Part shown: positions 13,285-58,117 of the stretch, in pieces
Layout: every line of letters starts with the position of its first letter
How positions within the stretch are numbered: position 1 is the first letter of the stretch
Source of the DNA: Bacteroidales bacterium
GTDB taxonomy: Bacteria > Bacteroidota > Bacteroidia > Bacteroidales > Marinilabiliaceae
Reading direction: 5' to 3'
Assembly (NCBI GenBank): GCA_024401365.1
Contig: JAKSLE010000002.1
Span: 181,077-245,076, forward strand
Length of the DNA stretch: 64,000 bases
Translations under genes and position numbers: made by a program
Notes under the pieces: generated by a model
Told to the model about the DNA's origin: nothing
Databases searched by the model: none
Seen by the model: only the letters and a program-made list of their open reading frames with translations

Positions 13285-14061
13285 TTATTTTGCAATATTA
13301 GCACGCAACTCATTGAGATACACACGCATAGCTTCTGAGTCCTTGTTCTTGATAATTTCAACTAGACGTCCAAGCTGGTCGTGTATGCGCTCTACTTGCT
13401 CTGGGGTATATGGGTTGAAAAGAATCTCTGTCAACAGAAAATCATCCTCAGACAACACACCCTTTGCTGTATCAAAATGCTTACTGAATGTTGTTCCAGG
13501 TGCATCTTGTGGCTTCATGCAGGCTGCAAATACCATCGACGAAACAAATGGTATAGATAGCGAATAAGCTGTAGTCTCGTCATGACCCTGGAATGTATAC
13601 TCGTGTATGTTCAATCCAAGTCCTGCATAGAATTGCTTGAAGAATTCCTTGCCTTTCTCATCACCTTCTTTGATAATTATAGCATGGTTCTTACGCAAAT
13701 CACGAAGATTAGCAAAAGTAGGACCGAACATAGGGTGCGTCGATACAAATGGACGTCCCGACTTCTCGTAAAAATCCTTGAGTCCTGTCTTTACCGAAGC
13801 TATATCACTGATCGTACACGATGGAGATAGGTATGGAAGTACCTCCTCAAATGTTTGAATCGTATACTTGAGGGTAACGGCATTAATAAGCAACTCCGGA
13901 TCAAACTCTCGAATCTCTTCAAGTCTTGTCAGTCGTCGGGTATTAAAAACATATTGCAGACGCTTTATCTCCCGGTCATATATAGCAACATCGTGCTGAA
14001 GACAGAGAGAATCCGACAATATAGTACCCATCTTGCCGGCACCTACGATACAAATACGCAT
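13285..14061 (-). CDS. tyrA: Prephenate dehydrogenase
   Basis: 258 residues. It begins with the Rossmann signature MRICIVGAGKMGTILSDSL (GxGxxG). Residues about 100-115 contain the family motif VSTHPMFGPTFANLRDL, where the His acts in hydride transfer and decarboxylation of prephenate to 4-hydroxyphenylpyruvate. The C-terminal helical dimerisation domain follows. No ACT domain is present, so direct Tyr feedback is less likely at this enzyme. It is the last gene of the pheA operon, 18 bp after the DAHP synthase/chorismate mutase gene. NAD versus NADP preference is not clear. Confidence 0.93.
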   Translation of the reverse strand: MRICIVGAGKMGTILSDSLCLQHDVAIYDREIKRLQYVFNTRRLTRLEEIREFDPELLINAVTLKYTIQTFEEVLPYLSPSCTISDIASVKTGLKDFYEKSGRPFVSTHPMFGPTFANLRDLRKNHAIIIKEGDEKGKEFFKQFYAGLGLNIHEYTFQGHDETTAYSLSIPFVSSMVFAACMKPQDAPGTTFSKHFDTAKGVLSEDDFLLTEILFNPYTPEQVERIHDQLGRLVEIIKNKDSEAMRVYLNELRANIAK

Positions 14062-14079: not shown

Positions 14080-15171
14080 TTATTTCTTCGATGAAAGTTC
14101 CTTCATGAGTTCGTTCTGTATATTTACCGACTCCTCATGAATGTCCTCAAATACCTTGATAACGAAATCTGCATTGAGCTTATTCGCCTCGGCCTGCTTA
14201 CGACGAGTATTGAGAATCTCTTCGTAACGATGAGCCTGAAGTACAGTGATGTTGTTCTCGTACTTGTACTTGCCAATAGCTGCCGATACCTTCATTCGCT
14301 CACTGAAAATCTCAAGCAACTTCGCGTCTAACTCGTCTATCTTCTGACGCAAAACGTCAATCTCTGTACGTGGCTTATCGCCAATCGCGTGCTCTCTGAG
14401 CACAATATTATCTAGTATCATCTTTAGATGTGCTGGTGTTACTTGTTGTTTAGCATCCGACCATGCGCGAGCTGGACACTCATGGCTCTCTATAATAAGG
14501 CCATCAAAGTTAAGGTCCATAGCTTGCTGCGAAACCTCAGCTATAAGATCACAGTTGCCCGTAATATGCGATGGGTCTGTAATAATAGGCAAATTTGGAA
14601 TACGGCGGTGCAATTCAATAGGAATCTGCCATTGAGGATGGTTGCGGAACTGCGACTTCTCATACTGAGAGAAACCTCGGTGAATAGCTGCCAACTTCTT
14701 GATGCCGGCACGATTAAGACGCTCAAATGCACCGATCCACAACTCAAGGTCTGGATTTACAGGATTCTTAACCAATACAGGAATATCTGTACCTCGAAGC
14801 GCATCTGCAATCTCCTGAACAGCAAATGGATTGGCTGTAGTACGAGCACCTATCCAGAGAATATCTACTCCATATTTAATAGCTTCGTAGCAGTGCTTGG
14901 CTGTGGCAACCTCAGTACCGACATACATGCCTGTCTCTTTCTTAACTCGCTGCAACCATGGAAGACCTGCCTCTCCTACTCCTTCAAATGCTCCTGGACG
15001 TGTACGTGGCTTCCAAATACCTGCACGAAATATCTTAATACCGTTTCGTGCAAGCTCAGTGGCTGTATTTATTACTTGTTCTTCGGTTTCTGCCGAACAT
15101 GGACCTGCTATCACTAGTGGACGCTTAGCCTCTACACCAGGAAGCAATATCGATTCAATCTCTAGTTCCAT
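14080..15171 (-). CDS. Bifunctional DAHP synthase / chorismate mutase type II
   Basis: 363 residues. Residues about 15-260 form a type I-beta (KDO8P synthase-like) DAHP synthase: VIAGPCSAETEEQ, KPRTRPGAFEGVG, GTEVATAKH and a C-terminal ESHECP region that binds metal. Residues about 270-355 are an AroQ-type chorismate mutase helix bundle (IDELDAKLLEIFSERM..). The fused enzyme makes DAHP from PEP and erythrose 4-phosphate and also turns chorismate into prephenate, giving the operon both the first step and the branch point. The mutase domain commonly serves as the allosteric domain for prephenate feedback. It lies between the aminotransferase and tyrA genes. Confidence 0.94.
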   Translation of the reverse strand: MELEIESILLPGVEAKRPLVIAGPCSAETEEQVINTATELARNGIKIFRAGIWKPRTRPGAFEGVGEAGLPWLQRVKKETGMYVGTEVATAKHCYEAIKYGVDILWIGARTTANPFAVQEIADALRGTDIPVLVKNPVNPDLELWIGAFERLNRAGIKKLAAIHRGFSQYEKSQFRNHPQWQIPIELHRRIPNLPIITDPSHITGNCDLIAEVSQQAMDLNFDGLIIESHECPARAWSDAKQQVTPAHLKMILDNIVLREHAIGDKPRTEIDVLRQKIDELDAKLLEIFSERMKVSAAIGKYKYENNITVLQAHRYEEILNTRRKQAEANKLNADFVIKVFEDIHEESVNIQNELMKELSSKK

Positions 15172-15203: not shown

Positions 15204-16367
15204 TTACAATTCTAATTTCTTGATGCGCGCAAGGGCCTCGTTAAATACCTCAACCTTGGCACAGAGCGATATACGAATAAAACGCTCACCTTGCGATCCA
15301 AAAATAAAGCCCGGAGTAATAAATACTCCTGTCCCATAGAGAACCTTGTCCGAGAGCTCTTCTCCATTCTTGTACTTGTCTGGTACTCGAGCCCATACAA
15401 ATAGACCTCCCTGATTCTTGTCAAACGAACAACCAAGGGCTTCCATAATGGCAAATGCCGATTGCTGTCTCTCACGATACTTGGCATTAAGGCTTGTAAA
15501 CCACTCCTTATCGAGTTTCAATGCCTCTACTGCGGCTAACTGCATAGGCTTGAATACGCCTGAATCCATATTGGACTTCACTCGGAGAACCACATTGATA
15601 ATCTCTGCATTTGAAGCCGCCATACCGAAACGCCAGCCAGCCATATTGTGAGCCTTCGACATTGAGTTAAGCTCTATCGCTACATCTTTAGCCCCAGGAA
15701 TGGAAAGAAGAGAAATAGGCTCCTTATGAAGAATGAAGCTATATGGGTTATCGTTACAGATCAAGATATTGTGCTTACGACCGAAGTCAACTATCTTTTG
15801 GTAGAGCTCCATTGTCGCTGGAGCTCCAGTTGGCATATTTGGATAGTTAATCCACATCAACTTTACTCCCTTAAGATCCATCTTCTCCAACTCATCGAAG
15901 TCTGGCTGCCAGTTGAGATGCTCGTAAAGCTTGTACTTAATAACCTTTGCCCCTACAAGATTGGATACCGATGAATATGTAGGATATCCTGGATCTGGAA
16001 CCAATACACCATCTCCAGGATTGAGAAACGCCATAGAGATATGGAATATACCTTCCTTCGAACCAATAAGTGGCAAAATCTCCGTCTTGGCATCCAACTT
16101 TACACCATACGAGCGATTGTACCACTCTGCATACCCCTCACGCAACGCAGGAATACCTACATAAGACTGATAACCATGAGCATTGGGCTGCGCTGCCGCC
16201 TCTGCAAGTGTGTTGATAACATTTGCTGGTGGTGGCATATCTGGACTACCAATTCCTAAATTGATAACATCTACGCCCTTGGAACGAAGGTCGTCCAAAC
16301 GGCGGTTATTACGAGAGAAGTAATACTCCTGTACGTTTGCTACTCGTTGTGCTGGTTCTATTATCAT
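15204..16367 (-). CDS. Class I/II aminotransferase (probable aromatic amino acid transaminase)
   Basis: 387 residues, a fold-type I PLP enzyme. Visible motifs are INLGIGSPD near residue 35, the PNMPTGAPA variant of the N-P-T-G motif near 178, the CNDNPYSF region near 200, and the PLP lysine in NSMSKAHNMAGWR near 235. Its place between pheA and the DAHP synthase/chorismate mutase gene points to the final transamination of phenylpyruvate and 4-hydroxyphenylpyruvate to Phe and Tyr. Similar sequences are often named aspartate or LL-diaminopimelate aminotransferase, so the substrate is inferred from context. Spacing to neighbours is 24 and 32 bp. Confidence 0.9.
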   Translation of the reverse strand: MIIEPAQRVANVQEYYFSRNNRRLDDLRSKGVDVINLGIGSPDMPPPANVINTLAEAAAQPNAHGYQSYVGIPALREGYAEWYNRSYGVKLDAKTEILPLIGSKEGIFHISMAFLNPGDGVLVPDPGYPTYSSVSNLVGAKVIKYKLYEHLNWQPDFDELEKMDLKGVKLMWINYPNMPTGAPATMELYQKIVDFGRKHNILICNDNPYSFILHKEPISLLSIPGAKDVAIELNSMSKAHNMAGWRFGMAASNAEIINVVLRVKSNMDSGVFKPMQLAAVEALKLDKEWFTSLNAKYRERQQSAFAIMEALGCSFDKNQGGLFVWARVPDKYKNGEELSDKVLYGTGVFITPGFIFGSQGERFIRISLCAKVEVFNEALARIKKLEL

Positions 16368-16391: not shown

Positions 16392-17255
16392 TTACTCCTC
16401 GTGACTCTGTCGTCCCATCTGATACTCACCCAAAACAGTCAATGTCCCACAAAGTGGACGGACTGCATCTAACGCCTGAATATAACGGGTGTAGTTGTCA
16501 AATGTAAGGTCGATATAGAAGAGATACTCCCACTCGTGACCTACTACAGGATTCGACTGAATCTTGGAGAGGTTCAAGCCATAGAATGCAAGAACTGTAA
16601 GTATCTTCGAAAGAGATCCCACCTCACGAGCCTGTGGAAGCGAGAACACTACCGACGAACGGTTGATCTTGTTTTTTTGCAGAAGTTCTGCTGTCTCTAT
16701 ATGAGAGCGATCATCCTTTACTACCAGGAATCGCGTGAAGTTTTTCTTATTCGTCTCAATACCCTTGGCAAGGATATTCAAACCATAAAGATTTGCTGCA
16801 ATCTTTGGCGCTATAGCACCTACAGTCTTTAGACCTTTTTCTGCAACTTCTTTTGCAGAGAGCGCTGTATCATCCGACTCAATGAGTCTTATATTTGGAT
16901 AATTACGGAAGAAAGGAGCACACTGTGCAAGCGCCATAGGGTGACTGTGAACCTCTGTCAAATCCTCAATCTTTACACCAGGAAGAGCCATCAGATTGTG
17001 CTTGATACGAAGCTTGTACTCTCCTATAACCGAAAGTCCGCTCTCATGAAGAAGAGTATAGTTGGAGTTGATCGAGCCAACCAATGTATTTTCAATTGCT
17101 ACTATGCCGTAAAGCGACTCGTCCTCTTTTACCACCTGAAAGAGTTCTTGAAAGGTATTGCATGGTACTACCTGTACCTCTTCCCCTTGAAAATACTCTT
17201 CAGCTGCAATCTGGTGATTGGCACCCTCTACGCCTTGTATAGCTACTCGTTTCAT
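16392..17255 (-). CDS. pheA: Prephenate dehydratase with ACT domain
   Basis: 287 residues, a stand-alone dehydratase without a fused mutase, as expected because chorismate mutase is supplied by the downstream fusion. The PDT domain starts VAIQGVEGANHQIAAEEYF and contains ENTLVGSINSNY (about residue 56) and TRFLVV (about 175), the TRF motif needed for catalysis. Residues about 195-275 form the ACT regulatory domain (SLPQAREVGSLSKILTVL, then LSKIQSNP), which binds Phe for feedback inhibition. It is the first structural gene of the operon and follows an attenuator with a Phe/Tyr leader peptide. Confidence 0.95.
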   Translation of the reverse strand: MKRVAIQGVEGANHQIAAEEYFQGEEVQVVPCNTFQELFQVVKEDESLYGIVAIENTLVGSINSNYTLLHESGLSVIGEYKLRIKHNLMALPGVKIEDLTEVHSHPMALAQCAPFFRNYPNIRLIESDDTALSAKEVAEKGLKTVGAIAPKIAANLYGLNILAKGIETNKKNFTRFLVVKDDRSHIETAELLQKNKINRSSVVFSLPQAREVGSLSKILTVLAFYGLNLSKIQSNPVVGHEWEYLFYIDLTFDNYTRYIQALDAVRPLCGTLTVLGEYQMGRQSHEE

Positions 17256-17276
17256 CTATAATATATTTCTAATAAG

Positions 17277-17310
17277 AAAGCTCACTCGACTTATCAGTCC
17301 AGTGAGCTTT
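17277..17310 (-). terminator. Attenuator terminator upstream of pheA
   Basis: Perfect 10-bp arms AAAGCTCACT and AGTGAGCTTT. After a single G/G mismatch the stem continues with GACT/AGTC around a GATA loop. On the minus strand the stem is followed by CTTATTAG, so a U-rich run is only partial. It sits 22 bp before the pheA start codon and 46 bp after the leader peptide stop codon, the position expected for an attenuator. Confidence 0.85.
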
Positions 17311-17361
17311 GTTCTATTGTCTTATGCCTCGTAAGCCTCGACTATGGTATATCGCTCACTG
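17300..17361 (-). promoter_or_regulatory. Candidate antiterminator pairing
   Basis: On the minus strand CAGTGAGC (17361-17354) covers the leader peptide stop codon and is complementary, 8 of 8, to GCTCACTG (17307-17300), the 5' arm of the terminator. Formation of this pairing would prevent the terminator. A ribosome at the stop codon would cover CAGTGAGC and favour termination; a ribosome stalled at the Phe/Tyr codons would leave it free. Confidence 0.75.
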
Positions 17362-17424
17362 CTCTTTTGGATAATAACCAAAAAAGTAAAATGAATAACC
17401 GTAGTAAAATCGCTTATTTGACAT
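17356..17424 (-). CDS. Phe/Tyr-rich leader peptide of the aromatic operon
   Basis: A 22-codon frame, ATG at 17424 and TGA at 17358-17356. Residues 5-18 read RFYYGYSFYFFGYY; overall there are four Phe and six Tyr codons, ten of 22 residues, and the densest run lies near the 3' end, where a stalled ribosome would free the antiterminator strand. It begins about 48 nt after the predicted transcription start and is followed by the antiterminator/terminator pair and then pheA. The content matches exactly the two end products of the operon, which argues against chance. Leader-peptide attenuation is well known in Proteobacteria and some Actinobacteria; I am not aware of a well-studied Bacteroidetes Phe/Tyr case. 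Confidence 0.85.
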   Translation of the reverse strand: MSNKRFYYGYSFYFFGYYPKEQ

Positions 17425-17478
17425 AGCTTATTGATATCTAATTGTCTCTGCGTTGCTAGTTGTAACTTCACAACGATG

Positions 17479-17486
17479 CAAAGTTA
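17479..17486 (-). promoter_or_regulatory. -7 promoter box of the Phe/Tyr operon
   Basis: TAACTTTG on the minus strand, an exact TAnnTTTG box, placing the start near 17472 and the leader peptide about 48 nt into the transcript. Confidence 0.7.
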
Positions 17487-17566
17487 CAAATTATTTTCTA
17501 ATAAGGTTATTATTGCGATAAAAAAGTTCAACAGATAGTGAATTTAAGTATAATACGTAGCAAAGT

Positions 17567-57710: not shown

Positions 57711-58106
57711 GGGGTTGACATGGATTTGACAGCATTTGATGGGGGTATGTAAGCATGCAGAGCTGGTGGAACTACGGCTCTTAAATCTCGGGTTTCGAAC
57801 TATAACTGGCGAAAACAATTACGCTCTCGCTGCCTAGTCGAAGTATAGTAGATAGGTTTTATCTCGGCCTAAGAGGCTGAGACGAGACATCTCTCAAAAG
57901 CCGAATCCAGGAGGCGTTTGGTTCAGAGGTGCTGGAAATTCCGGGATAGTCACTGGTATGCTCCTTGCCTGTGATGAGATTTAAAGAGATAAGGGTGGTT
58001 TCGGGTGCCTTTACCCACAGCCATCACGAAAACCAAGAAAAGGCTAAGCATGTAGAAATCATATTCTTGCGATGTTTGGACCGGGGTTCGATCCCCCGCA
58101 GCTCCA
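57711..58106 (+). ncRNA. ssrA: Transfer-messenger RNA
   Basis: About 396 nt. The 5' end GGGGTTG pairs with CAGCTCC near the 3' end over seven pairs (one G-U) to form the acceptor stem; the discriminator A at 58106 is not followed by an encoded CCA. The T-loop region GGTTCGATCCCC is clear at 58085-58096. The internal reading frame at 57808-57837 encodes the degradation tag GENNYALAA followed by TAG, which fits Bacteroidetes tags. tmRNA with SmpB rescues stalled ribosomes and marks the unfinished protein for proteolysis. Confidence 0.95.
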
Positions 58107-58117
58107 CAGAACGAAGG

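Follow-up and report, generated by a model that had tools for sequence, protein, structure and literature searches.

The prephenate dehydratase gene (pheA) in the analysed stretch of Bacteroidales DNA (the window, 64,000 nt) is preceded by an element that is very probably a ribosome-mediated transcription attenuator, with a joint Phe/Tyr leader peptide. We build the case from the sequence, which provides the parts of the element, their conservation, the exclusivity of the two helices, the covariation within them and the distance from codons to hairpin, whilst the start of transcription, translation of the leader, stalling, coupling and regulation by charged tRNA are steps that we infer. Attenuation was already the reading of the original prediction for this DNA, and the terminator, the antiterminator, the codon-to-hairpin distance and the covariation all fit it, with the qualification that the modelled switch of the window's own copy is weak.

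The leader frame agrees exactly, in coordinates and translation, with the one first proposed (22 codons, ten Phe/Tyr, aromatic stretch RFYYGYSFYFFGYY at residues 5-18), and its stop lies 100 nt before the pheA start (Table 1). At the 8.6% Phe+Tyr content of six window genes, at least ten such residues in 21 codons have a probability of ~3e-6, frames and positions being uncounted. Upstream stands the box TAACTTTG, which we take to be a promoter element of the TAnnTTTG consensus of Bacteroidetes, and downstream a terminator-like hairpin followed by TCTTATTAG, both placed as a leader needs them and as the proposal of a frame between promoter and terminator implied. A generic scan for promoters and terminators reported neither: the box because the scan is built on sigma-70 hexamers, and the hairpin, whose stem has an internal mismatch, probably because of a limit on loop size. 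Pfam profiles confirm the gene content claimed for the operon but not the order, which is in fact dehydratase, aminotransferase, DAHP synthase/chorismate mutase, dehydrogenase, an arrangement kept in 59 of the 68 loci with enough downstream DNA. The best NCBIfam match of pheA is PRK11898, below the cut-off of that model, and comparison with NCBIfam does not settle the substrate of the aminotransferase. Prevotella, suggested as the host, has a PheA only ~50% identical to that of the window and had to be given up: among relatives with a name, gut Bacteroidales and MAGs of Marinilabiliaceae stand closest, and it is from them that we take the class to be the Bacteroidia.

Table 1 Positions of the attenuator, of the operon behind it and of the Trp-rich leader of the same genome (window coordinates, except in the last row).
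Feature	Position	Strand	Details
Promoter -7 box	17486-17479	(-)	TAACTTTG, taken as Bacteroidetes TAnnTTTG type
Leader peptide ORF	17424..17356	(-)	MSNKRFYYGYSFYFFGYYPKEQ*, ATG start, 22 codons + TGA, ten Phe/Tyr codons
Segment 2, putative antiterminator 5' arm	17354..17361	(-)	CAGTGAGC, spans last leader codon, stop and next two bases
Segment 3, common to putative antiterminator and terminator	17300..17307	(-)	GCTCACTG, in 5' arm of hairpin
Terminator-like hairpin	17309-17278	(-)	32 nt, -20.8 kcal/mol; then TCTTATTAG at 17277-17269
pheA, prephenate dehydratase, first operon gene	16392..17255	(-)	PF00800, E 3.2e-57
Class I/II aminotransferase	15204..16367	(-)	PF00155, E 4.8e-63
DAHP synthase / chorismate mutase fusion	14080..15171	(-)	PF00793 + PF01817
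Prephenate dehydrogenase	13285..14061	(-)	PF02153, E 2.4e-10
Trp-rich short ORF	L218:717-776 (own genome, C31)		MQNVTLIWWRWQLSSKSRR, before trpE at L218:895

To follow the leader beyond the window we used the DNA upstream of related pheA genes. It was taken from 80 named contigs, from the 15 genomes of the genus, from a further 51 in the order that gave a match and from 67 genomes of the wider phylum. The last came from a phylum search in which 172 genomes, the window's own included, had a match to the PDT domain; upstream DNA was taken from 67 others (L125-L153, L176-L213). Removal of 13 exact duplicates from the 206 upstream regions that reached 350 nt left 193 distinct ones, and a region was scored positive if a short ORF held at least six Phe/Tyr inside 12 codons. 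This was the case in 158/193, and at a stricter score of at least eight in 131/193. An AT-rich leader that just happens to be open and aromatic-rich does attain the lower score now and then (45/965 dinucleotide shuffles, 18/193 reverse complements), yet the stricter score occurred in 0/965 shuffles and 3/193 reverse complements; together with the covariation described below, this conservation refutes chance as the explanation, and we regard its probability as negligible.

The leader was found in 14/14 usable regions of the window's own genus, 45/49 from the rest of the order, 37/40 from other orders of the class and 4/26 from other classes of the phylum. Conservation in relatives had been named at the outset as the check on the prediction, and the result in the genus, like that at the named loci (71/77 usable, with the cultured relatives Carboxylicivirga, Labilibacter and Saccharicrinis among the carriers), upholds it; the named and genome groups overlap, several genomes being common to both. 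A PheA tree (quick method, midpoint root) was built on 145 rows, comprising every one of the 35 without leader and 110 of the 145 with leader. In it the leader occurs in 110/123 rows of one clade and in 0/22 outside it, and the arrangement is presumably ancestral to that clade. Four of the leaders come from genomes labelled as other classes of the phylum (L126, L176, L186 and L191), whose PheA falls inside the leader clade, which suggests either transfer of the operon together with its leader or misplaced genomes.

In ten rows of the clade pheA lacks a leader, beyond three more (L224, L225 and L226, all of one genus) in which pheA lies directly behind another gene and is itself leaderless. In these three a Phe/Tyr-rich short ORF is found ~4.4 kb upstream of the pheA end, 56-68 nt ahead of a co-oriented DAHP synthase-like gene, and pheA follows several same-strand genes downstream of that gene (identities read from the sequence, without profiles). 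The leader therefore seems tied to whichever gene heads the aromatic operon, and not to pheA as such.

The composition of the short ORFs favours coding over a mere U-rich tract. In the 158 aromatic cores phenylalanine is encoded by 585 TTT and 197 TTC codons (782 in all) and tyrosine by 303 TAT and 276 TAC, against 0 TTA and 2 TTG; the third base thus varies between T and C whilst leucine is avoided, which indicates that the residue is kept and not a U-rich tract, although the ORFs were chosen for Phe/Tyr content and this choice favours a low count of leucine codons. Among 16 aligned sequences, the window included, pairwise differences numbered 190 at first, 424 at second and 454 at third codon positions, the large second-position change arising because Phe and Tyr interchange there. 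We considered the synonymous count as proof of purifying selection and rejected it, as 238 synonymous versus 491 non-synonymous codon differences do not by themselves show it; this count does not favour coding, and so the coding case rests on the residue pattern.

The surroundings of the start codon are also shared. A TAnnTTTG box occurs at most 110 nt upstream of the leader start in 128/158 leaders, compared with ~12 after letter shuffling, and the 20 nt preceding the start are 50% A. A Shine-Dalgarno-like motif precedes the start in just 3/158, in line with the weak Shine-Dalgarno use that had been anticipated for this bacterium.

In the window, segment 2 (CAGTGAGC) is a perfect 8-nt complement of segment 3 (GCTCACTG; p 0.03 versus letter shuffles), and the predicted antiterminator and terminator helices are mutually exclusive. 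The same two structures recur among the relatives. A terminator-like hairpin is predicted between the last aromatic codon and the gene in 158/158 leaders, a few of them doubtful (e.g. L125 and L129), and it is at or below -10 kcal/mol in 155/158 leaders versus 37/474 shuffled regions. For the antiterminator, three of the 158 leaders were dropped owing to overlap of ORF and hairpin (leaving 155) and then five more, so that the helix table holds 150; here the segment 2:3 helix, taken as the best pairing of the stretch behind the aromatic run with the 5' arm of the terminator, beats letter shuffles at p<=0.05 in 132/150, with 18/150 lacking a significant helix. Segment 2 starts before the stop codon or at most 12 nt after it in 150/150 leaders and, by this placement, would be reachable by a ribosome at the stop in every one.

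Both helices carry compensatory changes in the alignment of 16 sequences. The antiterminator has 96.1% of cells paired and 17 double-changed cells versus 6.7 in shuffles, with a score of 0.392 compared with 0.198 shuffled and at most 0.135 when slid out of register; the terminator has 97.9% paired, 14 double-changed cells versus 4.7, and a score of 0.334 compared with 0.197 shuffled and at most 0.190 slid. Two of five covariation measures for the antiterminator fail to exceed shuffles: the number of pairs with double changes (3 versus 2.6, 345/500 shuffles being as high) and the number of pair types (485/500 as high; 482/500 for the terminator). Shuffling of related sequences is no strict test of covariation; the slid controls agree with it in direction.

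The position of segment 2 relative to the codons is what a ribosome-sensing device would call for. Segment 2 begins a median of 14 nt after the last aromatic codon, counted from the first base of that codon, with the middle half of leaders at 12-16 nt, and as the search was open from 3 nt upwards this narrow range was not built in. An attenuator working by structure alone, sensed by an RNA-binding protein, a small-molecule riboswitch or a T-box tRNA with the ORF incidental, could employ the same terminator and antiterminator, as could any sensor. It would leave unexplained why the aromatic run is in frame with its residues kept, and why segment 2 holds its distance from the last aromatic codon even though its sequence varies (112 distinct 2:3 helices among 150 leaders). 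No Rfam family reaches its gathering score in 17240-17520, where the sole match was the PyrG leader at 22.6 bits versus a gathering score of 65, and on this ground a T-box or other curated RNA family was rejected for the leader. We therefore hold a structure-only device to be very unlikely. In the whole window a tmRNA, at 57711-58109 (+), is the one Rfam match that exceeds the gathering score of its family.

Ribosome positions were modelled in 155 leaders by masking all RNA as far as 12 nt from the first base of the A-site and folding the remainder to the end of segment 3, before segment 4 exists. This replaced equilibrium folding of the whole leader, which was uninformative about the switch: once complete, the terminator prevails in almost every state, and stalling lowers its probability by more than 0.3 in only 35/155 leaders. 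Since equilibrium favours the terminator, the switch must rely on the 2:3 helix forming before segment 4 is made. In the modified model, the predicted upstream pairing of segment 3 averages 0.75-0.82 with the A-site anywhere from 14 codons before the last aromatic codon through that codon, then declines over the three codons that follow (0.67, 0.46 and 0.28) and is 0.2 or less at nearly all later positions. The window's own modelled contrast is small (0.67-0.82 when stalled versus 0.60 at the stop), whilst in the close relative L004 the stalled state gives 0.79 versus 0.08 at the stop. Shuffled segment 2 regions also pair often with segment 3 (mean 0.54 versus 0.78 for the real ones, above 0.5 in 926/1550 shuffles). 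On a protector pairing 1:2, which would favour termination of an untranslated leader, the model gives opposing signs. Before segment 3 exists, segment 2 is itself predicted to be paired upstream, at a median of 0.80 in the 150 leaders, 0.59 in the window and 0.70 in E. coli, values without a shuffle control. With no ribosome on the leader, segment 3 pairs upstream at a median of 0.75, and above 0.6 in 114/155 leaders.

Phe and Tyr codons are both present in 155/158 cores, as expected from the original argument that the codons match both end products of the operon; phenylalanine makes up 57% of the core aromatics on average (range 29-100%). The attenuator might nevertheless sense just one of the two, the other aromatic codons being neutral passengers, as Phe and Tyr codons are one base apart. 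Three leaders are Phe-only, the last aromatic codon is Phe in 119/158, and E. coli pheL has Phe codons and no Tyr. Set against these are the presence of both residues in nearly all leaders with the average share just given, the fact that the operon makes both products, and the model, in which antiterminator pairing passes P>0.5 for a stall at one or more Phe codons in 154/155 leaders and at one or more Tyr codons in 150/155, so that both kinds of stall would open the antiterminator in 150/155. Sensing of a single amino acid is thus an unlikely reading, if the least unlikely of those we weighed against joint sensing. Joint sensing would act, on the simplest reading of the model, as an OR gate in which shortage of either charged tRNA switches the operon on.

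Under joint attenuation, transcription would begin shortly 3' of the promoter box and a ribosome would translate the leader close behind RNA polymerase. With ample Phe-tRNA and Tyr-tRNA the ribosome would reach the stop codon and cover segment 2, leaving segment 3 to pair with segment 4 in a terminator that would stop transcription before pheA. Were either charged tRNA scarce, the ribosome would stall within the interleaved run of Phe and Tyr codons, its front not quite reaching segment 2; segments 2 and 3 would then pair, no terminator would form, and the Phe/Tyr operon together with the common first enzyme of the pathway would be transcribed. A different role for the peptide would be that of a small protein acting in trans, for which the leader peptide peTrpL, reported to be active beyond attenuation (PMC7298713, as far as its available text goes), offers a precedent, or that of an arrest peptide sensing free Phe or Tyr in the ribosome tunnel. 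Outside the aromatic run, sequence and length of the peptide vary among relatives, and a stall induced by abundance would presumably switch a biosynthetic operon the wrong way; we judge such a role highly improbable.

Some loci carry more than one such leader. Two tandem Phe/Tyr ORFs, each with its own terminator-like hairpin, precede pheA in 11 loci (L040-L043, L098, L099, L117, L119, L140, L157 and L168), of which L040-L042 are near-copies, and the first ORF of L117 and L119 is weakly aromatic. Separate Phe and Tyr sensors were considered for the two ORFs and rejected, no such division being apparent by eye in the 11 loci.

Leaders of a similar kind also precede trpE. The genome of the window has a Trp-rich short ORF (MQNVTLIWWRWQLSSKSRR) there, with a TAnnTTTG promoter box and a terminator-like hairpin of -20.9 kcal/mol; downstream of the Trp codons the best complement spans 7 nt and sits in the hairpin loop and inner 3' arm and not in the 5' arm, and the switch is therefore less clear. 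Across the genus and the class we used the best 21 of 30 loci from one search and 14 of 20 from another, the remaining matches being weaker and probably paralogues, and two regions were too short, which left 33. Of these trpE upstreams, 31/33 have a short ORF in which ten codons include two Trp or more, versus 66/660 shuffles, and 26/33 reach three Trp or more; one positive, L231, looks spurious. In the light of these Trp-rich ORFs, ribosome-mediated attenuation seems to be a device in general use for aromatic amino acids across the class. A His leader was sought in the window's own genome and rejected, as both (CAY)6 matches fall within a 430-aa ORF, in its reading frame, and no His-rich short ORF occurs in the 450 nt preceding hisG. 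That 430-aa ORF (L214:673-1965, own genome, C25) begins MNNKTVPVLLLTGYLGSGKTTLINHVL, contains His-rich stretches with the only (CAY)6 runs in the genome, and looks by eye like a nucleotide-binding metal chaperone.

We think it probable that attenuation is ancestral and class-wide in the Bacteroidia, with a joint Phe/Tyr leader for the merged Phe/Tyr/DAHP-synthase operon, a Trp-rich leader for trpE and tandem leaders in some lineages, a wider scope than the original prediction supposed. The mechanism is classic; what is new, as far as searched, is the joint Phe/Tyr specificity and the distribution across the class, and the interest of the system lies in these two features and in the absence of Shine-Dalgarno signals. 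Attenuation without such signals, with the lead ribosome near RNA polymerase, would if true imply close coupling of transcription and translation at these leaders, and would equip the Bacteroidota, a phylum prominent in gut and marine communities, with a means of controlling aromatic amino acids. The leader would then also be a natural and genetically simple assay of transcription-translation coupling and of Shine-Dalgarno-independent initiation in the phylum. In the available part of a 2026 study, the Bacteroidota are absent from the phyla classed as having runaway transcription (PMC13323073), which agrees with a coupled mechanism without being evidence for coupling; as far as searched, the coupling literature yielded no paper devoted to the phylum.

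The closest precedent in the literature is a putative attenuator listed in 2005 before the operon pheA > hisHb > aroAIbeta-aroQ > tyrA of B. thetaiotaomicron (PMC1173090, Table 7), a structure-based prediction from Merino's attenuator website that is listed by operon. It stands before the same operon and, judging from the portion of that paper available, is very probably the same element; in contrast to the present analysis, that portion gives no leader peptide, codon content or conservation, and the word 'leader' occurs 0 times in the text. Small ORFs likened to leader peptides in long 5' UTRs were reported from B. thetaiotaomicron in 2020, with BT_4401 as the example (PMC7366714), which suggests leader peptides in Bacteroides, whereas 'aromatic' and 'phenylalanine' each occur 0 times in its main text, so far as this was available. 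From the excerpts available, a 2016 study treats leader genes near structural genes, Bacteroidetes included, without pheA or phenylalanine (PMC4833913), a work on his genes of Bacteroidota leaves leaders unmentioned (PMC8305728), and a paper of 2010 states that no leader peptide system was known outside Proteobacteria and Actinobacteria, except ermC (PMC2965389). Within the parts of the literature on leaders and attenuation available to our search, neither a Phe/Tyr leader peptide nor a leader-peptide attenuator of aromatic genes in Bacteroidetes is described, which agrees with the initial impression that no joint Phe/Tyr leader was known from this phylum.

Among characterised systems the leader most resembles that of E. 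coli pheL-pheA, which also has a short ORF of product codons and a terminator and antiterminator with a common segment. The modelled response of pheL has the same shape, with 0.75-0.88 on Phe codons and 0.0 at the stop, and its last Phe codon lies 11 nt from segment 2, compared with a median of 14 nt here. The likeness is one of architecture alone, as such short, repetitive peptides cannot bear a claim of homology. The two differ in that pheL has Phe codons without Tyr and controls a chorismate mutase-prephenate dehydratase fusion, with tyrA-aroF on the other strand, whilst the leader described here serves a Phe, Tyr and DAHP synthase operon and rarely has a Shine-Dalgarno-like motif before its start; in the no-ribosome state segment 3 of pheL pairs upstream at 0.17, in contrast to the median of 0.75 given above. 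The trpE leader of the same genome and class shares the TAnnTTTG box, an ORF of product codons and, in the window's own genome, the terminator-like hairpin, and differs in being Trp-specific. The multivalent leaders of enterobacteria, ilvL and thrL, contain codons for more than one end product, and the Phe/Tyr leader is like them in having such codons in one leader peptide and unlike them in the amino acids and pathways concerned.
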